A program made the translations under genes and the position numbers. Shown here in pieces: positions 1,109-58,083 of a DNA stretch of 64,000 nt. Each line of letters opens with the position of its first letter. The stretch's first letter is position 1. Under the pieces are notes generated by a model, which ran no database searches, was not told the DNA's origin, and saw only the letters and a list, made by a program, of their open reading frames with translations. Location: positions 558,001 through 622,000 of the forward strand of contig NZ_JALJYF010000001.1 in the NCBI RefSeq assembly GCF_024170465.1. The letters are read 5' to 3'. The stretch comes from Natronospira proteinivora (GTDB lineage: Bacteria > Pseudomonadota > Gammaproteobacteria > Natronospirales > Natronospiraceae).

Positions 1109-2080
1109 TCAGCCACCTCCCAAGGGGCTGCGCACCCCGGCAAAACCGCTGCCCAGCACATGGGTGTAAATCTGGGTGGTCTTCACATCCGAGTGCCCCA
1201 GCAGCTCCTGAACGGTGCGCAGGTCCGATCCCCGGCGCAGCAACTCCGTGGCAAAGCTATGCCGAAAGGTATGACAACTTGCCGGTTTGCTAATACCGAC
1301 GGATCGGATCGCTTGCTTCACCACCCGCTGAATCGCACTGGGATGGATGTGGTACCTCACCGCGCAACCATCGTCATCACTGCAGATGGAGCTGGAGGGG
1401 AAAAGCCACTGCCACGCAAAGCTGGTGCCCGCATTCGGATATTTTCTCGCCAAGGCAAAAGGAAGGCTGACCGGGATCCGCTTCTCTTGGGGTACCGCTT
1501 GGAAGTGCTGGCGCAGATCGGTGATTCGGCACTCGAGCGATATAATCAAGGGTTCCGGCATCAGGGTCGTGCGATCCTTACCCCCCTTACCGTCCCGGAC
1601 AGTGATAACCCGTCGGGAAAAGTCGAGATCCTTAACGCGGAGCCGGGCACATTCGGTAACCCGCAACCCGGCGCCATACAGCAAGGAAACCATCAAGCGG
1701 TAAGGATCCGGTACCTCCCGAATGATGGCCATCGCCTCCTCATGACTCAGCACCACTGGCAGCCGGGCCTGGCGCTTGGCCCGTGTCACGGCGCCAATAT
1801 CGCCCAATGGCCGATCCAGGACCTTGGCATAAAGAAAGACCAAAGCATTCAGTGCCTGGTTTTGGGTGGCTCCCGCAACATTTCGCTCCGTTGCAAGCCA
1901 GGAAAGAAAGGCCCGAACCTCCGGCTCCGCCATCTCATTGGGGTGCCGCATATTGTGAAAACGAATGAAAAAGCGGATCCAGTACCAGTAAGTTTTCTCG
2001 GTCCGGCGGCTGTACCGCCGCAAGCGAATCACACGCCGAACCTGCTCCCTCAACCGCGGTTTCCCGTCCCTGTGACTCAT
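1109..2080 (-). CDS. intI: Integron integrase (site-specific tyrosine recombinase)
   Basis: Recombines attI with attC sites of gene cassettes. The 323-residue protein has the tyrosine recombinase catalytic set in order: R140 (GAGLR), the lysine of the beta-hairpin near 165, H270-x2-R273 (HTFRHSF), H296 (LLGHSD) and the nucleophile Y305 (TQIYTH). The segment 211-228 (ARKYPNAG...WQWLFP) is the extra patch that separates integron integrases from XerC/D. An open frame continues upstream to 2233, but the ATG at 2080 has a GGGAGG ribosome site 6 bp before it and gives the usual IntI length. It is transcribed away from the cassette array, the normal integron layout. No sul1, qacE or Tn402 genes are near, so this is a chromosomal rather than a class 1 integron. 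It appears intact and therefore possibly active. Confidence 0.95.
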   Translation of the reverse strand: MSHRDGKPRLREQVRRVIRLRRYSRRTEKTYWYWIRFFIRFHNMRHPNEMAEPEVRAFLSWLATERNVAGATQNQALNALVFLYAKVLDRPLGDIGAVTRAKRQARLPVVLSHEEAMAIIREVPDPYRLMVSLLYGAGLRVTECARLRVKDLDFSRRVITVRDGKGGKDRTTLMPEPLIISLECRITDLRQHFQAVPQEKRIPVSLPFALARKYPNAGTSFAWQWLFPSSSICSDDDGCAVRYHIHPSAIQRVVKQAIRSVGISKPASCHTFRHSFATELLRRGSDLRTVQELLGHSDVKTTQIYTHVLGSGFAGVRSPLGGG

Positions 2081-2105
2081 GCGAACCTCCCTATCCACTC
2101 GAAAG

Positions 2106-2121
2106 CTGTATGGATATACAG
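2106..2121 (-). promoter_or_regulatory. LexA (SOS) box of intI
   Basis: CTGTATGGATATACAG fits the proteobacterial LexA consensus CTGT-N8-ACAG exactly. It lies immediately downstream of the predicted -10 element and 26 bp before the intI start codon, a position where bound LexA would block transcription. LexA control of integrase genes is established for several integrons; here it is inferred from the site. Confidence 0.9.
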
Positions 2122-2122
2122 T

Positions 2123-2152
2123 ATTATTGGCGGAGACAGGAGCTGCAGTCAA
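2123..2152 (-). promoter_or_regulatory. Predicted intI promoter
   Basis: On the minus strand TTGACT (2147-2152) and AATAAT (2123-2128) are separated by 18 bp, matching a sigma-70 -35/-10 pair. The LexA box follows directly, which supports the assignment. Confidence 0.65.
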
Positions 2153-2229
2153 GCGAATACAGGGGATGAGGGTATGCGCGGTGTTAAGCGATTGAAATCT
2201 GGAGAAATTAAGCCGTGACCTCCCAAGAA

Positions 2230-2297
2230 TCACTGGAAAGTTATACTGCAGGCAAGTTCATTCAATATCCTTGCCTGCAATCTAATCACTGTTAAAC
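2230..2297 (+). other. Candidate attI site
   Basis: GTTAAAC at 2291-2297 fits the integron core GTTRRRY and is the first such core to the right of intI, about 210 bp from its start codon, as expected for attI. Cassettes would insert between G2291 and T2292. Just left of it is a 10-bp inverted repeat (TGCAGGCAAG at 2247-2256 and its complement at 2270-2279). The integrase binding sites cannot be assigned by eye, and the genes directly to the right are eroded, so the site is tentative. Confidence 0.45.
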
Positions 2298-5259: not shown

Positions 5260-7026
5260 TTGCCAGAGGTGAGAATAAGCTCAATAAAATTTAAAAATTT
5301 CAAAGCACTGAGCAATTATTCTGTCTCCTTGAGCGAGACAAATATATTGGTCGGTCCGAATAATGCGGGAAAGTCAACGGTTATTAGTGCCTTCAGAATG
5401 CTGGATGTCGCCCTCCGGAAAGCAAGAAGGCTTCGGGCTGAACGGGTTCCCCTTCCTAATGACAGCGTCGGGTTTGGTCACCGCGTTCCAGAACAACAAA
5501 TCAGCGTATCGTTAGAGAACGTAGCTACAAACTACAATGATGAAGACAGCAGTATTGAATTTCGTTTAACAAATCGAAATAAACTATTTCTTTATTTCCC
5601 CAATGAAGGGGGGTGCATTCTACACTGGCAAACCGTAGGACAACCAGTTACTACGCCAGGGAGATTCAGGAATTCTTTCCCGGTTGTAATTCAGGTGGTG
5701 CCAGTTCTGGGCCCTCTCGAACATGAAGAGAAATACGTTAACGAAGATACTGTAAAAAATTCCCTTAACACTCATAGAGCTTGCCGACATTTTAGAAATT
5801 ATTGGCATTATTTTGATGAGGGCTGGGATGAATTCTCAGAAATGATTTCATCCACATGGCCTGGTATGTCCATGTCACAACCCGAACTGGATACGGCTAA
5901 CAGAAAGCTTGATATGTTTGTCAGCGAAGATCGACTTGATCGTGAAGTATATTGGTCTGGGCTCGGCTTCCAGATTTGGTGCCAATTGCTGACGCATTTG
6001 TCGAGAGCCAATGAAGCGAGCATCGTTGTAATAGACGAGCCAGAAATTTATCTCCATCCAGATGTTCAAAGACAACTTTTGAGTATTCTTAGAAATCTTG
6101 ATGCCGATGTTCTTTTGGCAACTCATTCTGTTGAAATTATGGGGGAAGCTGATCCATCTGAGCTACTTCTAATCAACAAAGCTTTTCGATCAGCTAGGAG
6201 GCTTAGAGATATTGAGGGAGTTCAACTTGCCCTTGAGTCATTAGGGTCAGCTCAAAATATTACATTGACACATCTTGCACGCACTAAAAAAATCCTCTTC
6301 GTCGAAGGTTTAAACGATTATAAAATCATAAGAAGATTTGCAAAGAGTATCGGCTTTAGTGAGCTATTTTCAGGAAACGATGTTACAGCTTTTGAATCAG
6401 GAGGTTTTTCGTCATGGGAGAAAATAAAATCGTTTGCTTGGGGTGTAAAAAACACGATTGACGCAAAGATGAAGCTGTTTGCGGTTTATGATCGCGATTA
6501 TTACTGCAGTGACGAAATTGATGATATTTTGAGCAGCCTTCAGGCAGAATTAACTCATGCTCATATCCATCGTAGGAAAGAAATTGAAAATTATTTTTTA
6601 GTTATTCCGGTATTAGAGCGAGTTTTAGATAAACAAATAGATGCTAGAAATCGGAGGTCCGGCGAAAATATAGAGGTTAAAAAGGGAATCGTCGACTATT
6701 TGTATGAGATTACAGAAGATCTTAAACTGGAGGCTCAGTCTCAATATATAGGAAAACGTATTGCCTATCATCAAGGTAGTGGTAAGGACGGCGGAACAAT
6801 CAGTCATGAAGCGATTAAAGTATTTGAAGAGCTATGGAGCGATATTAACTCACGAATGGAGATTGCTCCTGGCAAGGTCACGCTGAGGAGTTTACGTGCT
6901 AAGGTACAAGACGATTACAACGTTAATTTATCTGATGTCCAAATTATTGACGAATTCGATTTGGCAGAAATTCCAGAAGACCTCCGCAGCCTGATTGATG
7001 ATCTGGAAGCATTCCGTGCTGGATAG
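5260..7026 (+). CDS. OLD-family ATP-dependent nuclease (ABC ATPase + TOPRIM)
   Basis: The 588-residue protein starts with an SMC/RecF-like ATPase domain: Walker A GPNNAGKST at 32-40, Walker B VVIDEPE near 259 and the H-loop LLATHS near 288. A TOPRIM nuclease domain follows, with FVEGLND near 349 (acidic residue 1) and VYDRDY near 411 (DxD pair). OLD proteins cut DNA under ATP control, and several act in phage defence (P2 Old, GajA of Gabija, retron-linked OLD). The start is TTG at 5260, preceded by GGAG 9 bp upstream. AT-rich codon use differs from the chromosome. It is the first gene of the clear cassette array, ends in attC 7027-7104, and is followed by a reverse transcriptase cassette. There is no UvrD-like helicase beside it, so it is not Gabija. 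Confidence 0.85.
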   Translation: MPEVRISSIKFKNFKALSNYSVSLSETNILVGPNNAGKSTVISAFRMLDVALRKARRLRAERVPLPNDSVGFGHRVPEQQISVSLENVATNYNDEDSSIEFRLTNRNKLFLYFPNEGGCILHWQTVGQPVTTPGRFRNSFPVVIQVVPVLGPLEHEEKYVNEDTVKNSLNTHRACRHFRNYWHYFDEGWDEFSEMISSTWPGMSMSQPELDTANRKLDMFVSEDRLDREVYWSGLGFQIWCQLLTHLSRANEASIVVIDEPEIYLHPDVQRQLLSILRNLDADVLLATHSVEIMGEADPSELLLINKAFRSARRLRDIEGVQLALESLGSAQNITLTHLARTKKILFVEGLNDYKIIRRFAKSIGFSELFSGNDVTAFESGGFSSWEKIKSFAWGVKNTIDAKMKLFAVYDRDYYCSDEIDDILSSLQAELTHAHIHRRKEIENYFLVIPVLERVLDKQIDARNRRSGENIEVKKGIVDYLYEITEDLKLEAQSQYIGKRIAYHQGSGKDGGTISHEAIKVFEELWSDINSRMEIAPGKVTLRSLRAKVQDDYNVNLSDVQIIDEFDLAEIPEDLRSLIDDLEAFRAG

Positions 7027-7104: not shown

Positions 7105-7123
7105 GGAAAGGTGAGGCAAGTTG

Positions 7124-8713
7124 ATGACTCTAGATGATGCGATAGAACTCAGTATAGCCAACCTGTCTTGCCATGGATTGAGTGATATATCGGACGCCAA
7201 TCTCGAAAAGGCATTGATGGAGCGGTTTTCTGACAGACTGCATGAAAGCGTACGAAAAAGCTTGAAGAAAGATAACGTCTACGAGATGGAGTTTAAGCCC
7301 GCGCAGTATATGCTTTCTCCAAAGAATCGATATATTTTCGACTATAGAAAAGCGGCGATTATAGAGCCCGAGTGCCTCGTAAAGTATACAGCGCTTGTCC
7401 TTATGGCGGCGGAGCAAATAGAAAATAACCGAATTCCGGTGTCGGAAAAAGTCGTTTTTTCGGCAAGATATATGCCGCAGTCACCAGATCTATTTAATGC
7501 CGACGTGAATTATTCCTCTTGGCGCGAAAGGACTAAAGAGCTCGCTGAGTCTAGTGACTGTGCATTTATTGTTTCATGTGATATTGCAGCATTCTACGAT
7601 AGGGTTAATATTCATAGGGTCGAGTCTACATTAGATAGCATTGGCGTCGATCAAAAAGTAGTTAAAAAGATCAATGATCTACTGTTGTTCTGGTCGAGAA
7701 AGGATAGCTACGGGTTGCCGGTTGGGAATGCAGCTAGCCGAATTCTTGCGGAAGCAGCTCTTATCGATATAGATCAATATTTGTTAAGTGAAAATATAAG
7801 ATTCACAAGATACGTTGATGATTATAGGCTTTTTGCGCCAGACATCGTAACTGCGCAGAGATGGATGAATAAGTTGAATACGCGGCTATTCCGTGATGGG
7901 TTAATGCTTAACACCGGAAAAACGAGGTTGGCGAAGGCCAAGAAATCTGAAGATGGTGAGGTGACCGAAGGCGATGATAGTGACGAGGAGGCGGCTGAAC
8001 GTGTTTTGAAAGAGGTAACCAAACTAACCGGCGGCTATAACAGGATTGCTCGTCGGTTCATAATGCCTTCTGAGGATAAGCATCATCTGTTTAAGGCAGT
8101 CGAAATTGATGCCGAAATCGAGTCCCTAATGGATGAGGCGATCATTGAGTTCAGAGGGGTTCAGCAGCTTGTTATAGCATGTCTAGTGCAAAAGAGCTTC
8201 AGTAAGTTAATCCAAGTCGCTGAGCTTTGCTCTAGATATATGTATAGCCTGGATTACTTTGTTGATATGCTTCTTAAGAACAAAGCGTTCATTCCGGTGG
8301 AGCAGCGCGATGAAATAGCGGATTTCTTCGCCAGGTTGTCCATGGATCGCGAGTTTTATTCATTTGAATGGCATCAGGCTAGCGTGGCGAAGTTGTTAAG
8401 CGACGACGCTTATTTTCGTAAGAATGCTCTGATAGAGATTTTTCGTTCTTCCAGCAAGGACATGCCCTCGTATCCCTCGGTCGTCGCATTAGATGGTCTC
8501 GAGGGGAGAATCACGAGGTCTGAGTTTAGAACTATGCGGGAGTGGTTCGACCGTTGTGATGATTGGGAAAAGCGGCGGTTGATGCGGTTGTCGAACTCGC
8601 TGCCTACCGACGAACGTAAGGCCTGGGCTCGCGCGGTCAGGCCATCGATACGAAACGATGTGCTTGGCGGGGAATTTTCGAAGGTGCTGGCTAATGGCAA
8701 AGACCCAGTCTAA
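7124..8713 (+). CDS. Reverse transcriptase, DRT/Abi-like, with C-terminal helical domain
   Basis: The 529-residue protein has the RT motifs in order: a conserved N-terminal block (DYRKAAIIEPECLVKY, 73-88), motif A CDIAAFYD with D153, motif B GLPVGNAAS (197-205), motif C YVDD at 230-233, and LNTGKT shortly after. An acidic linker rich in Glu/Asp follows (about residues 275-292). The remaining 230 residues are helix-rich with no second enzyme motif, which resembles the HEAT-like C-terminal half of Abi and 'unknown group' RTs involved in phage defence. Retron-specific signs (VTG motif, msr/msd RNA) and group II intron maturase domains are not seen. The ATG at 7124 follows GAGG by 7 bp. The gene fills one cassette between two attC sites. 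Function in phage resistance is inferred. Confidence 0.85.
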   Translation: MTLDDAIELSIANLSCHGLSDISDANLEKALMERFSDRLHESVRKSLKKDNVYEMEFKPAQYMLSPKNRYIFDYRKAAIIEPECLVKYTALVLMAAEQIENNRIPVSEKVVFSARYMPQSPDLFNADVNYSSWRERTKELAESSDCAFIVSCDIAAFYDRVNIHRVESTLDSIGVDQKVVKKINDLLLFWSRKDSYGLPVGNAASRILAEAALIDIDQYLLSENIRFTRYVDDYRLFAPDIVTAQRWMNKLNTRLFRDGLMLNTGKTRLAKAKKSEDGEVTEGDDSDEEAAERVLKEVTKLTGGYNRIARRFIMPSEDKHHLFKAVEIDAEIESLMDEAIIEFRGVQQLVIACLVQKSFSKLIQVAELCSRYMYSLDYFVDMLLKNKAFIPVEQRDEIADFFARLSMDREFYSFEWHQASVAKLLSDDAYFRKNALIEIFRSSSKDMPSYPSVVALDGLEGRITRSEFRTMREWFDRCDDWEKRRLMRLSNSLPTDERKAWARAVRPSIRNDVLGGEFSKVLANGKDPV

Positions 8714-8786
8714 CAACCGGCTCCACAAGGACGGCGAGCTCTCCGCTATGCTCCGAGCCCGCCGCCTGTGAGCCGTGACGTTATGC
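8708..8786 (+). repeat. attC site of the reverse transcriptase cassette
   Basis: R'' GTCTAAC (8708-8714) overlaps the RT stop codon and R' is GTTATGC (8780-8786). The interior contains complementary GC-rich arms (GGCGAGCTCTCCGC ... GCGAGCC type) over 79 bp. Confidence 0.85.
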
Positions 8787-9265
8787 AGAGTGCTATGGAA
8801 GAAATGCTAAACATTAATCCAATCGGCAATAAAGTTTTTAAAGCTCTTAGTCGTTTTTTGGAGCAAGATTTTGAATTGCTGGAAATAGACGCGAATGAGC
8901 GCACATTGACTCATAGGGTAGCGATCTATCTACAAGATCTGTTTCCTGACATGAATGTAGATTGTGAATACAATCGTGATGATCATGACCCAAAGGATAT
9001 GTTTCTTCCGGGTGGGGACGGAGATGTTTACGACACTGATGCTCAGACGGTTTACCCAGACATTATCGTCCATAGACGTAAAACCGGTGAGAATTTGTTG
9101 GTTATGGAATTCAAGAAGACCTCATCAAGAGTCGATGACAAAAAAGACTTCTTGAAGCTTCGTGAATACAAAAGCCAATTACATTATCACTACGCCATAT
9201 TTGTAGAATTTGACGTCGGGTGTTTATCTAGTGGCGTCACTCGAGTTGAGTGGGTAAATGCATAA
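8783..9265 (+). CDS. PD-(D/E)xK nuclease-like cassette protein
   Basis: This 160-residue protein has TLTHRVAIYLQDLFPDMNVDCEYNR near the N-terminus, then YPDIIVHRR and, 10 residues later, NLLVMEFKK. The order (E in the first helix)...PD...(x)ExK matches the PD-(D/E)xK nuclease core. Similar short proteins occur alone in cassettes and phage-defence loci; whether this one cuts nucleic acid is inferred. The first ATG (8783) lies inside the R' core of the preceding attC, so the start codon would be supplied by the recombination site; ATG 8795 or 8804 are alternatives. It follows the reverse transcriptase cassette. Confidence 0.65.
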   Translation: MQSAMEEMLNINPIGNKVFKALSRFLEQDFELLEIDANERTLTHRVAIYLQDLFPDMNVDCEYNRDDHDPKDMFLPGGDGDVYDTDAQTVYPDIIVHRRKTGENLLVMEFKKTSSRVDDKKDFLKLREYKSQLHYHYAIFVEFDVGCLSSGVTRVEWVNA

Positions 9266-9677: not shown

Positions 9678-9742
9678 CCAGTCACTGCACCGGATGCCAA
9701 TTCCGCTCACGCTTCATGCCACCGGTGAGTTCAACGTTGGGA
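9672..9742 (+). repeat. attC site
   Basis: R'' TTTTAAC (9672-9678) overlaps the stop codon; R' GTTGGGA is at 9736-9742. Arms CACCGGATGCC and GCCACCGGTGAG pair within the 71 bp. Confidence 0.8.
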
Positions 9743-9753
9743 GAGGTAAGCTC

Positions 9754-10911
9754 ATGGCAATATGGTCAGCGTTGATACTGGCTGCTGGGACAATAATAGC
9801 AGCGGTATGGCTACGGCCGGTGCTTTGGTATCGCACGCTTCATGAAGCGATTAATGACCAGTTGGAGTCTCGCAGACGCCATAATGCCAAGCTGCAAGCT
9901 TATGTCAAAGACATAATGCGATCGCTTGATCAAACTTCGAATAACACAGTTCTCAATAGGCCGTCTTCGCCCAATGATTATTCGGACTCGTTAAAGCTAG
10001 TAGAGGGAGCACTTGATCGCGCTATTGGGTGCAACGAAGCGGTGGCGACATACTGTGTTCTTTTCGAGCGGACTCTATCTCCATTGCGAAGGGCGCCTGG
10101 CTCCAATAGCCAGCCGAACCTCGTATTTGTGAATTTGCACTATTACTTGTCACGCGGGGCGGCCACAATTGAGAATGCAGCTTCCAATTATATTGAGCTC
10201 CCGGACAAGTTAAAAGTAGGCCAATTTAACCCGATACGAAAGAATCTTCGCGGGTTTGTTGGGAAGTCGAGACTTAAGCATGTCCCGGGCTTAAGTCGTG
10301 GCCTGGATATTTCACCGCTTTCACCTTACGTTCTAGACTTTTACGCGGACGTTATTTCTCGGACATTTCGGGATAATCCAGAGTTTTTTCGTTCCTTCTT
10401 TCAGGTGATTGGGGATAACGCCCTGATGGGAGTGATCTTGTATCAGCAAGGCTTCTATTATCCACTGACAATCAAACTGCCCCCGATCCCTCTCTTTGGG
10501 CAGTATGACGGCCTTTTGATTGGCTTCAAGCTGCAAACGCATTTTAGTGAAGAAGGGGGGCGGCCTGAGGTCGTACTCTATTATTCTCACCTGAGTTCAT
10601 CTGCCAATTTTATGGCTGGATACGCTAAGAATGGGAGTGTGCAGCAATCATTTGTCGATACGAATCTGTGTCCACAGTTTGACTTCAAGTCCCATATTAG
10701 AACTGTTGAGTACGTAACGGACGAAGTCGTGGCCGTATATATTTCTCAGAAGTCTGGTGAGGACGCATTTGAGTTATGCAGGCCTTCCCTGCAGGATTGG
10801 CTTATTAGGAAGGCCGGTCGGTGGTGGCCAAAGGAAAAGGCTCAGATTTGGCTAACCGATCGCATTCGGCGTCGACCTGCGCTTTCGAGAATCCTCGGTA
10901 TCTCTGAATGA
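9754..10911 (+). CDS. Membrane-anchored orphan cassette protein
   Basis: The 385-residue protein has one N-terminal membrane helix (WSALILAAGTIIAAVWL, about 4-20), a charged coiled-coil-like stretch (LHEAINDQLESRRRHNAKLQ) and a large soluble region with no motif I recognise. The aromatic-rich part 225-290 (FFRSFFQVIGDNALMG, VLYYSHLSSSANFMAGYAKNG) suggests a folded beta domain. ATG 9754 follows AGAGG by 8 bp; the open frame begins earlier at 9694, inside the attC site, and was not used. It occupies a full cassette. It may act at the cytoplasmic side of the membrane next to the putative defence cassettes; function unknown. Confidence 0.7.
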   Translation: MAIWSALILAAGTIIAAVWLRPVLWYRTLHEAINDQLESRRRHNAKLQAYVKDIMRSLDQTSNNTVLNRPSSPNDYSDSLKLVEGALDRAIGCNEAVATYCVLFERTLSPLRRAPGSNSQPNLVFVNLHYYLSRGAATIENAASNYIELPDKLKVGQFNPIRKNLRGFVGKSRLKHVPGLSRGLDISPLSPYVLDFYADVISRTFRDNPEFFRSFFQVIGDNALMGVILYQQGFYYPLTIKLPPIPLFGQYDGLLIGFKLQTHFSEEGGRPEVVLYYSHLSSSANFMAGYAKNGSVQQSFVDTNLCPQFDFKSHIRTVEYVTDEVVAVYISQKSGEDAFELCRPSLQDWLIRKAGRWWPKEKAQIWLTDRIRRRPALSRILGISE

Positions 10912-10923
10912 TCGAGATAAAAA

Positions 10924-11004
10924 TCCCAACAATAGCGTGAACACGGACGGCTCTACCCTCCGCTTCGCTACGGGTAAAGCCGCCGGTTACGCTAGACGTT
11001 AGGG
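10924..11004 (+). repeat. attC site
   Basis: R' GTTAGGG (10998-11004) is clear; R'' is probably TCCCAAC (10924-10930) with one mismatch in pairing. Arms ACGGACGGCT and AGCCGCCGGT pair, with CTACCCTCCGCTTCGCTACGG between them, typical attC structure. Confidence 0.75.
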
Positions 11005-11011
11005 CTAAGAA

Positions 11012-11545
11012 ATGGCACATCCATTGAAAGTAGGGAAGTCAGTGAGATCAGGGCCTGGCATATTGCTGGAAAGGCCTGATCTTGCGGCCCAAATTGGAAG
11101 TATCTGTGCTGACTGGGCAAGTCTTGAGGATGGCTTAGCGAGTTTCTACGCTCATTTGATGGGGATATATCTTCCCTCTATTCCGGGTTTTGAACCACCA
11201 ACTCATCCAGTTGCATTCCAGATTTTTGATGAGGTGCAAACTATTCATTCACGAGTGCAACTGGTAAAGAAGCTGGCTGAGTGGGCCATCAAGGACGAGG
11301 ACTTAAAAAAGCGTGCTGTGGACATTCTTGATAAGGTGAAAAAATCAGGAAAGGGTAGAAACAAGATTGCTCACGCAGTTTGGGGTATCTGTGATGAAGA
11401 ATCCGACGCGTTAATATTGTTGCCGAACTTCGGGTCCCAAATGATATATAAGCTTAATGACTTCAAAGAAATTGCAGAACAAATTTATGTTTCAAAAGCG
11501 GAGCTTGGGAAAGTTCATCATGAATTTTACAAAAGCCGTAAATGA
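11012..11545 (+). CDS. HEPN-like cassette protein (R-N-x3-H motif), first of three
   Basis: The 177-residue protein is mostly helical. The first helix region (IGSICADWASLEDGLASFYAHLM) and the later VKKLAEWAI are followed by GRNKIAHAVWG, where R116 and H121 match the R-x4-6-H signature of HEPN domains; these are often RNases of toxin-antitoxin and abortive infection systems. No second domain is visible. ATG 11012 lies 8 bp after the R' core. Its neighbours in the next two cassettes carry the same motif. Assignment as an active RNase is inferred; non-catalytic HEPN-like helical bundles also exist. Confidence 0.6.
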   Translation: MAHPLKVGKSVRSGPGILLERPDLAAQIGSICADWASLEDGLASFYAHLMGIYLPSIPGFEPPTHPVAFQIFDEVQTIHSRVQLVKKLAEWAIKDEDLKKRAVDILDKVKKSGKGRNKIAHAVWGICDEESDALILLPNFGSQMIYKLNDFKEIAEQIYVSKAELGKVHHEFYKSRK

Positions 11546-11548
11546 AAG

Positions 11549-11608
11549 CCCTAACAAGTGCGTCAAAGGCGACGCTCGTGCCTCGCGCGCTTTACGCGGG
11601 CGTTAAGC
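11549..11608 (+). repeat. attC site
   Basis: R'' CCCTAAC (11549-11555) and R' GTTAAGC (11602-11608) bound a compact 60-bp site with arms GGCGACGCTCG and CGCGCGC/GCGGGCG. Confidence 0.8.
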
Positions 11609-11617
11609 AGGAGGCGT

Positions 11618-12412
11618 ATGTCCAAAGCACACAAGCCGAAAGCACCGGACTGGGCGCTTTCGCCACTCGAAGAATTTTTGAACCGGAGCGAGCATTTGGC
11701 GACCGTGGTTAGGCTAAGCGTCCAGGGCATGAGTATGGCTAAGGCGTTACCAAAAGCCATGGAAGCGCTGAGGCGCGCAGATGGAGAAAACTTAGATGCT
11801 GAGTTACACGAAAAGGCAGTTCGCGATGCCGAATTTGTGGAGAAAGAACGATCAGAGGGCTTCCCAGTTGTTCATGGGCAGGCAGTGCTTTCACTCTGGT
11901 CTCTCCTCGAGCTTGCAGTTAAAGACCTGGTTGCCGCCTGGATAAAAAACAATCCAGATCTCCTGCTTGCCCCACCGATTAGCAGCCTGAAAATGAAGAT
12001 TGGTGATTACCTTATGATTGAAGAGGATGAGAGGTGCCTGTTTTTTGTAGATGTTATTGAGCGGGATGTTGGGGCCGGAATTAAGAATGGTATTAATAGA
12101 TTCGAATCGCTCACTAGTACTGTGGGATTATCAGGGGTGACTCCCCGGAAAATGAATGAAATCTTCTTTGAGTTCGGCCAAGTGCGGAACGCGCTAGCAC
12201 ATCAAGGTAATCGGGCAGACAAAAAGCTCATAACCAATTGTCCATGGCTTGACCTCGAAGCGGGAAAGGATTTGCGCATAAGTTCGGAAATGTTCCAAAA
12301 GTATCATAAGGTATCATTAACATACGCGACTCTATTGATTTGCCGCACTGCGGAGCGCTTTGGGGTAGATATGCAATCCGAGAGGGAAGGGTTGTTTGAT
12401 GCCTATGCTTAA
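11618..12412 (+). CDS. HEPN-like cassette protein (R-N-x3-H motif), second of three
   Basis: The 264-residue protein has a Lys/Ala-rich start, a helical first half with the phrase VVHGQAVLSLWSLLELAVKDLVAAWI (about 84-109), and in the second half QVRNALAHQG, where R190 and H195 form an R-x4-H motif inside a predicted helix. The order 'helix with LxSLLE... then RNxLAH' is common in cytosolic HEPN/RiboL-PSP-like families. ATG 11618 follows GGAGG by 5 bp. It fills one cassette. Function unknown; RNA cleavage is a guess based on the motif. Confidence 0.6.
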   Translation: MSKAHKPKAPDWALSPLEEFLNRSEHLATVVRLSVQGMSMAKALPKAMEALRRADGENLDAELHEKAVRDAEFVEKERSEGFPVVHGQAVLSLWSLLELAVKDLVAAWIKNNPDLLLAPPISSLKMKIGDYLMIEEDERCLFFVDVIERDVGAGIKNGINRFESLTSTVGLSGVTPRKMNEIFFEFGQVRNALAHQGNRADKKLITNCPWLDLEAGKDLRISSEMFQKYHKVSLTYATLLICRTAERFGVDMQSEREGLFDAYA

Positions 12413-12484
12413 CAAAGCCATGCACCGGATGCCAAATCCTCCGCTTCGCTGCGGATTTGCCACCGGTGATGGCGGGCGTTATAT
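12407..12484 (+). repeat. attC site
   Basis: R'' GCTTAAC (12407-12413) overlaps the stop codon; R' GTTATAT is at 12478-12484. The interior has nearly perfect arms TGCACCGGATGCCAAATCC / GGATTTGCCACCGGTG around CGCTTCGCTGCG. Confidence 0.9.
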
Positions 12485-12499
12485 TTCAAAGGAAGCATC

Positions 12500-13375
12500 G
12501 TGCAATCAGCTATAGAACTCGCTAGGGTTGAAGGGGATAGCATAAAAGCAATTCGATCTTTGAATGACGAAGAAGTCCAAGAAGTCAGGGATTGCAATAA
12601 AGAAATATTCGATTTCAATAGACACTTCAAACTTGTCGAATATGTGCTCCACAATTTTTCATGCTTAAAAAACGGCGTTGAAGATGCGCTTCAAGAGTTT
12701 GCAGAAAGCTCTCATGCAATAGGCCGCTATGATTTAGACTCATTTGGTCATGAAGTAAACATTAACTTATTGAATCTGATGATGTCAGCGAGAACTTTTC
12801 TTGACCATATGGAGACTTTTATAAAAAGGGAGTATGGGAAAAAGTCAGAGCCTGTAGAGCTGTTCAAAAAATTAACCGAAGAAGAGTTCGATAGTAGGTT
12901 TTCATATAAATTTATGTATAAGCTTCGTAACTATGTTCAGCACTGCGGTATGCCTCCATTAAGTTATTCGAAGAGTAAAAGTTTTGACGAACAAGCCCCT
13001 TATGTTGGCATAACTCTAATGTTTGATAGAGATGCATTAATATCAGGTTTTGATGGTTGGGGGGCTATCGTTAGACCACAGCTAGAATCTCAAGATAATA
13101 AATTCGATGCATTCGGAATTATTGAAGAATTTGTTCTATCCATATTAAGAATATACATCCGCTTTTACGATGAAACAAAATTTCAGAAAACCCTTGAAGC
13201 TAGAGCACGAATAGCTGAGATCATCGAACAAAGTGAGGTATATTTTGAAGATGATTATTGCTTGTTCTGCGCATCAGAAAAAGATGGTGAAAAGGTAACT
13301 TTCAACATGTCTTGGATACCAGCATCGCTTTTTAGAAAAGTGGAGCATTACCTAAGACTGAGAAGGAAAATATAA
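12500..13375 (+). CDS. HEPN-like cassette protein (R-N-x3-H motif), third of three
   Basis: The 291-residue protein is rich in Lys, Glu and Phe. After a helical N-terminus it has LLNLMMSARTFLDHMETFIKRE (about 90-111) and then YKLRNYVQHCG with R143 and H148, again R-x4-H with Asn after the Arg. The C-terminal half (VGITLMFDRDALISG ...) is mixed alpha/beta and not recognised. GTG 12500 is preceded by AAGGAAG 5 bp upstream. It is one of the most AT-rich genes in the window. It differs clearly from the two preceding proteins outside the motif, so the three are not recent duplicates. Confidence 0.55.
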   Translation: MQSAIELARVEGDSIKAIRSLNDEEVQEVRDCNKEIFDFNRHFKLVEYVLHNFSCLKNGVEDALQEFAESSHAIGRYDLDSFGHEVNINLLNLMMSARTFLDHMETFIKREYGKKSEPVELFKKLTEEEFDSRFSYKFMYKLRNYVQHCGMPPLSYSKSKSFDEQAPYVGITLMFDRDALISGFDGWGAIVRPQLESQDNKFDAFGIIEEFVLSILRIYIRFYDETKFQKTLEARARIAEIIEQSEVYFEDDYCLFCASEKDGEKVTFNMSWIPASLFRKVEHYLRLRRKI

Positions 13376-13426
13376 CAAGCGCCTGCAAGGTGACGCGCAA
13401 GCGCGCACTTGAGGCGGGCGTTAGAA
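13370..13426 (+). repeat. attC site
   Basis: R'' ATATAAC (13370-13376) and R' GTTAGAA (13420-13426) enclose a 57-bp site with arms GCCTGCAAG / CTTGAGGC. Confidence 0.85.
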
Positions 13427-13436
13427 GGAGAAAGTT

Positions 13437-14261
13437 TTGGGGCAGTCGATAACTTCGCTGGAAGGTTTCATTCGAAAAATTCGGTATGTTCAACCCAAAG
13501 AAGATGAAGTACTCCTGTACCGGGGCCATGCAAAACGCCAGGGCCGAAAAGTGCACCCGTGGGTTCTTAGAGAAGAGGATCTCGCAGAGAAAGAGCACAA
13601 CATGATCAGGGAGATCATAGCCACTCATCCATCAGAGTTTGACCATGACACTACGGCCTTGGAGCGCCTCGCACGAGCGCAACACTACACTCTACCAACG
13701 AGGCTTTTAGATGTATCGTGGAATCCTTTGGTTGCACTTTATTTTGCTGTAAGTGGGCGGCACTCTGGAAAGCCAGCGCAAGTCATCGTATTTCGGGTCA
13801 AGAAGGACCATCTGAAATACTTTGATAGCGATGCCGTGAGTTGTATTGCCAATCTTTCCCAGTTGAAGAAAGCTGAGAAAGACAGTATCGATTTTAGTCT
13901 CCCAAATAATCAGTTCAACCAACAGGATGCTGTTGATCGCCTTCTACAATTTGTGAGGGCGGAGAAACCGCACTTTAGGCCTGAAATTGAGCCGAGTCAT
14001 TTGCAAAGTGTTTTTTGTGTAAAGCCAAAAATGAACAGCCGACGAATTCTCGCGCAGTCAGGGGCATTTATGATCTTCGGAATGACCGGCGATCTTGACA
14101 CGAATTCGGTTCCGGGCATTTCGATAGAGAGAATCAATATCAATGGTAATAAGAAGGATATAATCCTTAGGGAACTGGACCACATGGCTATCAATGACAG
14201 TACAATGTTTCCCGAAATCGACAAGGCTGCAAACTACATTCGACAGCAGTCATTCTTCTAA
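13437..14261 (+). CDS. FRG-domain cassette protein
   Basis: The 274-residue protein carries the FRG signature near the N-terminus (LLYRGHA, 27-32) and its second block LERLARAQHYTLPTRLLDVSWNP ... VALYFAV (about 80-105). FRG-domain proteins occur widely in accessory regions and many sit in defence or toxin loci; their biochemical activity is not settled. The rest of the protein has no recognised domain. TTG 13437 is the only start near the ribosome site AAGGAGAAAG. It is the last of a run of large cassettes before the small membrane protein. Confidence 0.75.
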   Translation: MGQSITSLEGFIRKIRYVQPKEDEVLLYRGHAKRQGRKVHPWVLREEDLAEKEHNMIREIIATHPSEFDHDTTALERLARAQHYTLPTRLLDVSWNPLVALYFAVSGRHSGKPAQVIVFRVKKDHLKYFDSDAVSCIANLSQLKKAEKDSIDFSLPNNQFNQQDAVDRLLQFVRAEKPHFRPEIEPSHLQSVFCVKPKMNSRRILAQSGAFMIFGMTGDLDTNSVPGISIERININGNKKDIILRELDHMAINDSTMFPEIDKAANYIRQQSFF

Positions 14262-16288: not shown

Positions 16289-16567
16289 ATGATTCGAAGC
16301 TTCAAACACAAGGGCTTGGCGAAGTTCTTCAAGTCCGGGAGCACAGCAGGGATTCAGGCGGCTCATGCAAAGAGGCTTCGGCTGATTCTCGGTAGACTGA
16401 ATGCAGCATCAGACGCCAAGGATATGGACTTGCCAGGCCTTCGACTGCATGAGCTCTCAGGAAATCGAGCCGGAATTTGGTCAGTACCGGTGAGCGGTAA
16501 CTGGCGAGTGACCTTCCGGTTCGAGGATGGAGATGCCGAGATCGTGAATTACGAGGATTATCATTGA
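16289..16567 (+). CDS. higB: HigB-type toxin (RelE/ParE superfamily mRNA interferase)
   Basis: The 92-residue protein begins [14 protein letters not shown], followed by [24 protein letters not shown], and [29 protein letters not shown], which is the full HigB ('plasmid maintenance killer') pattern including the C-terminal histidine. HigB cuts mRNA at the ribosome and is held inactive by HigA, encoded 10 bp downstream in the same cassette. As with other integron toxin-antitoxin pairs, it probably helps keep the array from being lost. Confidence 0.9.
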
Positions 16568-16577
16568 GGTGTCGCCA

Positions 16578-16865
16578 ATGTTGATGCACAACCCTCCCCA
16601 TCCTGGTGAAGTATTGCGAGAGCTCTGCCTGGAACCCCTTGGCCTGTCTGTAACTGCGGCTGCGGAGGCATTGGGAGTAAGTCGCAAAACTCTGAGTGCT
16701 GTCCTGAACGGCAAGGCTGGTATTAGCCCTGAGATGGCGATTCGTCTTTCTATCGCGTTCGATACCTCGGCAGAAAGCTGGTTGAACCAGCAATCCCAGT
16801 ATGAGCTCTGGCATGCCGAGCAACATCGTAAAGATCTCAAGGTTAAGAAGCTTGTTGCCGCCTAG
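16578..16865 (+). CDS. higA: HigA-type antitoxin (XRE helix-turn-helix)
   Basis: The 95-residue protein starts [16 protein letters not shown], has the helix-turn-helix [20 protein letters not shown] and the conserved [10 protein letters not shown] ... [12 protein letters not shown]. It neutralises HigB and normally represses the higBA promoter. ATG 16578 is preferred over GTG 16569 because GAGG lies 8 bp before it and the N-terminus fits the family. It follows higB in the order typical of higBA, opposite to most other toxin-antitoxin operons. Confidence 0.9.
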
Positions 16866-17806: not shown

Positions 17807-17920
17807 ATGGCACGGATGGTTCATTCTGAGTGTGAGTGGGCAACGCTAGTTGGCCAGCTGCTCATTGACTTACTAAGTGGAGATGGTCACAAAATCAATG
17901 ACTCTGATTTTATTGATTAA
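17807..17920 (+). CDS. Short ORF at the start of the SDR/LysR cassette
   Basis: A 37-codon frame (MARMVHSECEW...GDGHKINDSDFID) begins 18 bp after the damaged attC core, the usual place for a cassette gene, and its stop overlaps the stop of the convergent SDR gene. The family is not recognised; it may be a truncated cassette gene. Confidence 0.3.
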   Translation: MARMVHSECEWATLVGQLLIDLLSGDGHKINDSDFID

Positions 17921-18738
17921 ATTCCCTTCGCGATATTAACCGACTGTTCGAGCTCCATTTGGAGGCGATTTACCTTGTTGGTGGCCCACTCCTGTGCATC
18001 GTCACCAAAGACGAAGCGGGCGGGTGGCTCGCTCGACATGCCGAGGGAGACTATGCGTTCTGCGAGCATGACCGGGTCACCAGGCTGGTTGTGATTTGCG
18101 GCCGCGATGAACGAGCGAAACTGCCGGGTCGCCTCGGCATAATCGGGAACGTCGATATCACCGTGCGCGGCTGATTTGTCGTCGAGGAAATCCGTACGCA
18201 GCATGCCCGGCTCAACCACCATCGATTTGATGTTGAGGGGAGCCAGTTCCTGTGCAAATCCCTCTATCCAGCCCTCAATTGCAAATTTTGACGATGAGTA
18301 GATGGATCCTCCCGGGTTTGCGAGCAAACCGTTAACGGAAGAGATGGTTACGATGAGGCCTGACTGGCGCGCACGCATGTGTGGCACCACAGCACGGGTT
18401 ACGTTCATCGTGCCGAAGACATTCACCTCGAACTGGCGCTGCACTTGTTCGCTGCTGATCGTTTCGAACCAGCCGAGCAGTGCCTGGCCGGCGTTATTGA
18501 CCAACACGTCGATTGTGCCAACCAGATCCATTGCCTCTTGTGCCACGGCGACGGCCGCACTTTCGTCCGTAATATCGAGTGCCAGCGCGTGAAGTCTGCT
18601 GTTTGTTCCGAGTGCTTCCGTAACGTCGTTGGCAGACCGAGCCGTAGCGACGACGGTTTCACCAGCAGCAAGCGCGGCACGGGCGATCTCCATACCTAAT
18701 CCACGGCTGGCGCCCGTGATGAGCCAGTTTCTAGACAT
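17917..18738 (-). CDS. Short-chain dehydrogenase/reductase (SDR)
   Basis: The 273-residue classical SDR has the cofactor motif TGASRGLGMEIA, DITDE, NNAGQALLG, the catalytic serine (TISSVNG) and YSSSKFA (Tyr-x3-Lys). The substrate is unknown. It runs opposite to the cassette direction and is divergent from a LysR regulator, 98 bp apart, so the pair probably forms one regulated unit. A gene in reverse orientation within the array is unusual and implies its own promoter. Confidence 0.85.
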   Translation of the reverse strand: MSRNWLITGASRGLGMEIARAALAAGETVVATARSANDVTEALGTNSRLHALALDITDESAAVAVAQEAMDLVGTIDVLVNNAGQALLGWFETISSEQVQRQFEVNVFGTMNVTRAVVPHMRARQSGLIVTISSVNGLLANPGGSIYSSSKFAIEGWIEGFAQELAPLNIKSMVVEPGMLRTDFLDDKSAAHGDIDVPDYAEATRQFRSFIAAANHNQPGDPVMLAERIVSLGMSSEPPARFVFGDDAQEWATNKVNRLQMELEQSVNIAKGI

Positions 18739-18764
18739 AAGTTGCTCCTTATCTGAAATGTAGT

Positions 18765-18779
18765 TACATAGTATATGTA
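18765..18779. promoter_or_regulatory. Palindrome between SDR and LysR genes (putative LysR operator)
   Basis: TACATAGTATATGTA is a perfect 6-bp inverted repeat with a 3-base centre in the 98-bp divergent intergenic region. LysR proteins bind such AT-rich palindromes next to divergent promoters; assignment is from position and symmetry only. Confidence 0.5.
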
Positions 18780-18836
18780 CTAATAAATCATGATAACCTG
18801 CTTATTAATTATAGGGTCTATAAGGAGAGCTAACGA

Positions 18837-19736
18837 ATGCGCCCAAGCCTGCTCGGCGATCTGGAAATTTTCCGCGTCATTGCTGCTGAAGGCAGTTTTA
18901 CGCGCGCCGCTAAGCGGCTGGGCGTTACTCAATCGGCGCTCAGCCAAACGCTCAAGCGGTTGGAGGAAGACATTGGAATCAGGCTGCTGGCGCGCACGAC
19001 GCGCAGTGTTTCGCCGACCCATGCCGGCGCCCGTCTGCTGACAAAACTGTCCCCCGCGCTCGACGAGGTGACCAATGAAATCAAGTTGCTCACCAGCCTG
19101 CGCGATGAACCGATTGGTACGGTCAGGGTGAGTGCCGGAAAACACGCGGCCGACACGATTCTCTGGCCGGCACTGAGTTCCTTGATTCGACAGCATCCGG
19201 GTATTGACGTTGAGGTCTCCGTCGAAAACGACTTCGTGGATCTCATCGCGGGCAGGTTTGACGCCGGCATCCGACTGGGCGAAAGGCTTGAGAACGATAT
19301 GGTGGCACTGCCAATTGGCCCTCAAATGCGGGTCGCTGTTGTCGCCGCGCCCTCTTATCTCTCGCGACACGGCACACCGAAACAACCTTCCGAACTGTCC
19401 CAGCATTCCTGCATCAGCTTCAGAAATCGCAGCGGGGAGCTATCACCTTGGGATTTCGAAAAGGATGGGCGCAACCTCACAGTCAAGCCTGGTCGAGGTC
19501 CGATTTTCAACGATAGCGATTTGATGGTTGCCGCTGCAACCGAGGGGCACGGCTTTGCGTACATCCTTGAGGACATCGTTAGCAGGCAAATCGCTTCTGG
19601 TACGCTGGTGCGCGTGCTGGAAGAATGGTGTGAGCTGTTCGCTGGTTACTACCTTTACTACCCGAGTCGCCGACAGCAGACATCCGCCTTCACACACTTC
19701 AAGAATGCACTGCGCGATGTGGTTTCGTTGAATTAG
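18837..19736 (+). CDS. LysR-family transcriptional regulator
   Basis: The 299-residue protein has the N-terminal LysR helix-turn-helix (VIAAEGSFTRAAKRLGVTQSALSQTLKRLE, 15-44) and a periplasmic-binding-type effector domain (GTVRVSAGKHAADTILWPAL; GHGFAYILEDIVSRQI; YYLYYPSRRQQTSAF). The C-terminal phrase is typical of regulators that control a divergent SDR or oxidoreductase. ATG 18837 follows AAGGAGAG by 9 bp. Its target is probably the SDR gene across the palindrome at 18765. About 100 bp after the stop (19737-19838) hold no gene except a possible 13-codon gene tail at 19803-19844. Confidence 0.9.
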   Translation: MRPSLLGDLEIFRVIAAEGSFTRAAKRLGVTQSALSQTLKRLEEDIGIRLLARTTRSVSPTHAGARLLTKLSPALDEVTNEIKLLTSLRDEPIGTVRVSAGKHAADTILWPALSSLIRQHPGIDVEVSVENDFVDLIAGRFDAGIRLGERLENDMVALPIGPQMRVAVVAAPSYLSRHGTPKQPSELSQHSCISFRNRSGELSPWDFEKDGRNLTVKPGRGPIFNDSDLMVAAATEGHGFAYILEDIVSRQIASGTLVRVLEEWCELFAGYYLYYPSRRQQTSAFTHFKNALRDVVSLN

Positions 19737-57936: not shown

Positions 57937-57942
57937 GCGCGC

Positions 57943-58083
57943 CCTGATTAAGCAAACCACACACACGCCGACACATACGGCTGGGTGCCTCGGTTGCCGC
58001 TGACCCTTTCCGAGGGGCCTGCGGGGCCGAGGTTGTCGTATGGGGCGTGTGGAGGCCCAACCCTCAAAAACTGGAGAAAAGGT
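57943..58083 (+). promoter_or_regulatory. rpsB mRNA leader with hairpin
   Basis: The long leader contains CCTCGG (57990-57995) and CCGAGG (58027-58032) that can pair, enclosing further GC-rich pairs, followed by an unpaired stretch up to the GGAG ribosome site. In E. coli, ribosomal protein S2 represses its own operon through such a leader. The exact S2 motif is not confirmed here. Confidence 0.4.

Follow-up and report, generated by a model that had tools for sequence, protein, structure and literature searches.

We identified three adjacent genes, P1, P2 and P3, which we consider on balance to be mutually unrelated single-gene integron cassettes encoding candidate endoribonucleases of the HEPN type. 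The trio spans positions 11012-13375 of the window, that is, of the whole 64,000-nt stretch of contig NZ_JALJYF010000001.1 (558,001-622,000) that was analysed. A first-pass annotation had described three consecutive cassettes here, encoding otherwise different proteins of 177, 264 and 291 aa that bear RNKIAH, RNALAH and RNYVQH. The open reading frames and motifs were confirmed, attC-type sites were found to flank each gene, and the proteins gave no mutual match in profile comparison. The integrase, the three genes and their attC sites are as follows.

1109-2233, minus strand: IntI, the integron integrase of the array (TIGR02249, E 5.1e-121; Pfam Phage_integrase and Phage_int_SAM_4)
10924-11004, plus strand: attC before P1, an imperfect palindrome
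11012-11545, plus strand: P1, HEPN-like candidate cassette gene, 177 aa, ATG start
11549-11608, plus strand: attC between P1 and P2
11618-12412, plus strand: P2, HEPN-like candidate cassette gene, 264 aa, ATG behind AGGAGG
12407-12484, plus strand: attC between P2 and P3
12500-13375, plus strand: P3, HEPN-like candidate cassette gene, 291 aa, GTG behind AAGGAAG, a relative of PHROG 30874
about 13372-13428, plus strand: attC after P3

Because attC-type palindromes flank P1, P2 and P3, each of these genes is a cassette, lying between attC sites in an IntI-bearing array as integron gene cassettes do. The TIGR02249 match of IntI, together with integrases from the same genus that are 67-71% identical to it, identifies the region as a chromosomal integron array, whose end lies at roughly 20.7 kb of the window. 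A longer GTG frame for P2, beginning at 11558, has its start within the attC site. The GC content is 43.3% for P1, 48.3% for P2 and 36.5% for P3, against 59% in the window beyond 30 kb. No second sense ORF of more than 49 aa was found in any of the three cassettes, and a HEPN/MNT toxin-antitoxin pair was ruled out, since a partner ORF of the size of an MNT antitoxin is absent beside P1, P2 and P3. Given the separate cassettes, the differing base composition and the lack of an antitoxin-sized partner, stand-alone genes are the simplest reading of all three. The adjacency of the three genes and the motif common to them could also be explained if the trio worked jointly as a single defence module. 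This is highly improbable, because the genes have separate attC sites and differ in base composition (43, 48 and 36.5% GC), and because relatives of P1 and P3 never occurred together in the examined loci. Most simply, the adjacency reflects chance capture of cassettes in a defence-rich array.

HEPN dimers with R-x4-H motifs act as metal-independent RNases, the toxicity of which arrests growth (Anantharaman et al., PMC3710099; PMC7641770). The corresponding motifs occupy residues 116-121 of P1 (RNKIAH, DNA 11357-11374), 190-195 of P2 (RNALAH, 12185-12202) and 143-148 of P3 (RNYVQH, 12926-12943). They had been described as occurring at similar places, which applies only loosely, at 65%, 72% and 49% of the protein length, respectively. 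All three proteins have the HEPN-type arrangement R-x4-6-H with a polar residue after the Arg; it is family-conserved for P1 and P3, and no relatives of P2 were found. Among the 74 non-overlapping ORFs of at least 80 aa in the window, RN-x3-H is confined to these three mutually adjacent genes, and R[DH]-x3-H is found in five others. After shuffling of the sequences, RN-x3-H appeared in 0.43% (P1), 1.4% (P2) and 1.6% (P3) of cases, corresponding to a chance of about 1e-6 per triplet for three consecutive genes and of less than 1e-4 for the window, figures that serve as a guide and not as a test since the motif was chosen post hoc. They support, without proving, a shared cause for the three motifs. 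A further RN-x3-H cassette (RNAVYH, 152 aa, L054:1029-1487), unrelated in sequence to P1, P2 and P3, was found in an integron of the same genus and suggests that integrons of this lineage repeatedly carry cassettes of this kind. The earlier statement that the trio is not expected by chance is thus borne out for the motif but calls for no special joint explanation, because integron HEPN cassettes have already been published (PMC3710099) and the related integron carries its RNAVYH cassette.

The strongest case for a HEPN fold, which is supported but not proven, is P3. Across the 10 aligned members of its family, which represent three phyla (Proteobacteria, Bacillus and Rhodococcus), full invariance is confined to R143, N144 and H148 (10/10), and an acidic residue (D/E) is kept at position 102 in nine of the 10. 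The motif was lost in one distant relative (L036) beyond these members. Structure prediction, which the first-pass annotation had proposed as a check, gave for P3 an AlphaFold2 model that is a helical bundle (mean pLDDT 82.8, pTM 0.79), and failed for P1, whose model (pLDDT 41.7) was unreliable and too poor for structure search. The P3 model has long helices at 23-70, 79-112, 134-149 and 204-226, the third bearing the motif at its C-terminal end, and beta-hairpins at 5-21 and 154-176. In HEPN domains the motif ends helix 3, helix 2 contributes an acidic residue, and other parts of the bundle accommodate inserts (PMC3710099); the helix order, the place of the motif and D/E102 in the P3 model are compatible with this description. 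VIA-align matches of the model include HepT (8xeh and 6m6u, Z 7.8) and an integron HEPN protein (3jrt, Z 6.7), but the model aligned as well with focal adhesion targeting domains and with designed bundles (Z 8.2 to 7), and Foldseek against PDB and BFVD returned nothing at E 0.001 or below. Since the HEPN matches do not rise above unrelated four-helix bundles and no Foldseek match was significant, the fold is compatible with HEPN, not decisive for it. As modelled, P3 shares with HepT of the HEPN/MNT system (PMC7641770) an R-x4-H that ends a helix in a helical bundle, but differs in having no neighbour of the size of an MNT antitoxin and in its Z score of 7.8, which does not exceed those of unrelated bundles. 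Two further matches of P3 were set aside: a HEPN toxin in PDB (profile search, E about 0.1) that falls outside the motif, and PADLOC CARF_HEPN (E 0.0098), which is too weak for use.

Relatives of P3 look like cargo of mobile elements, namely prophages and plasmids. The closer ones (36-38% identity) occupy the edges of prophages and adjoin tail-type genes (L007, L008), and more distant ones are on a Bacillus phage-like plasmid (L009) and on one plasmid each from Rhizobium and Rhodococcus, in the latter case adjoining AbiE (L011). Others are scattered over further genomes (6 of 359), and one of these (L035:4601-5515) directly adjoins an integrase at the end of an apparent filamentous prophage with a Zot-type gene, these names being taken from sequence reading. 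P3 (1.1e-7) and two of its prophage-borne relatives (5.9e-14 and 7.6e-4) matched PHROG 30874, a phage family with no recorded function, although P3 itself sits in an integron and not in a prophage. No Pfam match was obtained for the P3 family, and no meaningful NCBIfam match for P3 itself.

The P1 family consists of distant relatives (15-27% identity) scattered across the phylum. Apart from the start, the residues invariant in all eight members are G29, E39, F72, T77, L88, R116, N117 and H121, so that the polar residues kept throughout are mainly the RN-x3-H motif and one Glu. As judged from this alignment, the Glu, Arg, Asn and His among them form a set of the HEPN type. The motif was lost in a more distant relative (L051). 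As in the P3 family, the motif persists where almost nothing else does, and this sequence conservation supports the assignment of both P1 and P3 to HEPN. The P1 family gave no Pfam match and P1 itself no meaningful NCBIfam match, so that two of the three protein families (P1 and P3) are without a Pfam name. The HEPN reading of the first-pass annotation is accordingly supported in part: it gains from motif conservation in the P1 and P3 families and from a compatible fold for P3 only, and it is weakened by the poor P1 model, by a sub-threshold Pfam match of P2 and by structural matches that do not single out HEPN.

The proteins might also have HEPN-like folds that lack RNase activity and serve as RNA-binding or regulatory proteins in housekeeping roles, as some HEPN domains are non-catalytic (PMC3710099). 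Consistent with this, P1-family genes in Rhizobium, Shinella and Pseudaminobacter (Rhizobiales) adjoin HlyD-type secretion and polysaccharide-type genes, not defence islands, and also a FemAB/TPR-like gene (neighbour names from sequence reading); a defence role is therefore not assumable for the whole P1 family. Inactive HEPN domains usually have lost the catalytic-type residues, however, and precisely these are the most conserved in the P1 and P3 families, which makes such a role unlikely as an account of the trio. Placed between such genes in Rhizobiales (L012-L014, near 6000), the P1-family genes have a housekeeping-like setting for an RNKYNH protein.

For P2, no relatives were found in genome samples (249 and 369 genomes), among plasmids, phages and viral contigs, or by peptide pattern among 84,980 species genomes. 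Its best link to HEPN is the Pfam family HEPN_RiboL-PSP (PF18735), to which it is alignable over 110 residues including the motif, yet with 14.1 bits (E 0.043) against a curated cut-off of 28.4; P2 was therefore not filed in this family. The match vanishes without the motif segment. One or two of the three proteins (most likely P3 and P1) could be HEPN RNases, with the third (most likely P2) having a coincidental motif or another fold. P2 lacks relatives that would allow a conservation check of its motif, its Pfam score is below threshold, and RN-x3-H arises in 1.4% of P2 shuffles. On the other hand, the match takes in a W-x3-E-x3-K helix as well as RNALAHQG, reversed P2 gives none, and RNALAH aligns on the R-x4-H of nine above-cut-off RiboL-PSP proteins and of some weaker ones. 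We therefore regard a split trio as somewhat unlikely and retain the HEPN candidacy of all three.

Direct links between the families were sought by hhalign profile-profile comparison, both among P1, P2 and P3 and between them and RiboL-PSP HEPN proteins, and the scores were no better than those of decoys, with the best pieces falling on RNxxxH. PDB sequence searches with the three proteins gave no meaningful match, 3jrt included. The absence of a significant profile or Foldseek link among the three or to HEPN is what would be expected if the motif were convergent and the trio consisted of helical proteins that share neither ancestry nor biochemistry. Nevertheless, R, N and H are near-exclusively invariant in two separate families and the P3 model places the motif at the end of a helix, and convergence is thus quite improbable.

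By analogy with established HEPN biology, from which the dimer, the RNase activity, the trigger and phage defence are carried over, each protein would dimerise with itself as a helical bundle, the two R-N-x3-H motifs together making up a single metal-independent RNase site, aided by an acidic residue of another helix. Lying far down the array, the cassettes would be silent or inactive until infection or stress, upon which host or phage RNA would be cut and growth would stop, through abortive infection or dormancy. The trigger may reside in family-specific parts such as the two beta-hairpins (5-21 and 154-176) and C-terminal region of P3 or the first 80 residues of P2. P1, P2 and P3 are thus probably small stand-alone anti-phage or dormancy genes. 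Going further, we tentatively propose that P1 and P3 represent two unrecognised families of stand-alone HEPN RNases, and P2 a third, that sense infection without an antitoxin or partner, that prophages, plasmids and integrons have carried the P3 family into at least three phyla, and that integrons gather diverse one-gene defence effectors of the HEPN type next to one another.

An integron cassette family with a HEPN structure (PDB 3jrt, Vpc_cass2) was proposed to comprise RNases in 2013 (Anantharaman et al., PMC3710099). Like that family, the present genes are single-gene integron cassettes for candidate all-helical RNases, and 3jrt is among the structural matches of P3; P1, P2 and P3 differ in having no sequence match to 3jrt and so look like further sequence families. 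Sedentary chromosomal integrons store anti-phage systems, which was shown by experiment in Vibrio cholerae (Darracq et al. 2025, reviewed in PMC12409362). The array described here likewise is a chromosomal one with defence-like cassettes, their assignment being predicted from sequence. HEPN integron cassettes have thus been known since 2013 and integrons as defence stores since 2025, and the trio adds new members. If the HEPN reading is true, 2.4 kb yields three one-gene RNase effectors that are small enough for individual testing, and the case for anti-phage storage in chromosomal integrons is strengthened. Among the three families, that of P3, which seems to travel as cargo on filamentous prophages, tailed prophages and plasmids, offers the most useful lead.

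At least four cassettes around the trio are defence-like according to their predicted products.

5260-7026, plus strand: cassette for an AAA_21/Old-GajA-AriA-like ATPase
7121-8713, plus strand: cassette for a DRT8-type defence reverse transcriptase (PADLOC Drt8, E 3.8e-116)
8768-9265, plus strand: cassette for a PD-Lambda-3_A-like protein (PADLOC, E 3.4e-51)
13437-14261, plus strand: FRG-domain cassette, candidate system PDC-S15 (Pfam FRG, 3.5e-16; PADLOC PDC-S15, 8.1e-101)

The FRG/PDC-S15 cassette comes directly after the trio, and the DRT8 cassette lies directly 5' of the PD-Lambda-3_A-like cassette (7121-9265). A cassette protein of 405 aa with an N-terminal hydrophobic stretch (9694-10911) had no Pfam or PADLOC match. 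A two-gene cassette at 16289-16865 resembles the HigB/HigA toxin-antitoxin by sequence reading and had no PADLOC match. A minus-strand short-chain dehydrogenase gene with a divergent LysR regulator (17917-19736), an orientation unusual for cassettes, lies within or near the array end, and a t44 RNA (RF00127), an ordinary gammaproteobacterial feature, is present at 57940-58061.
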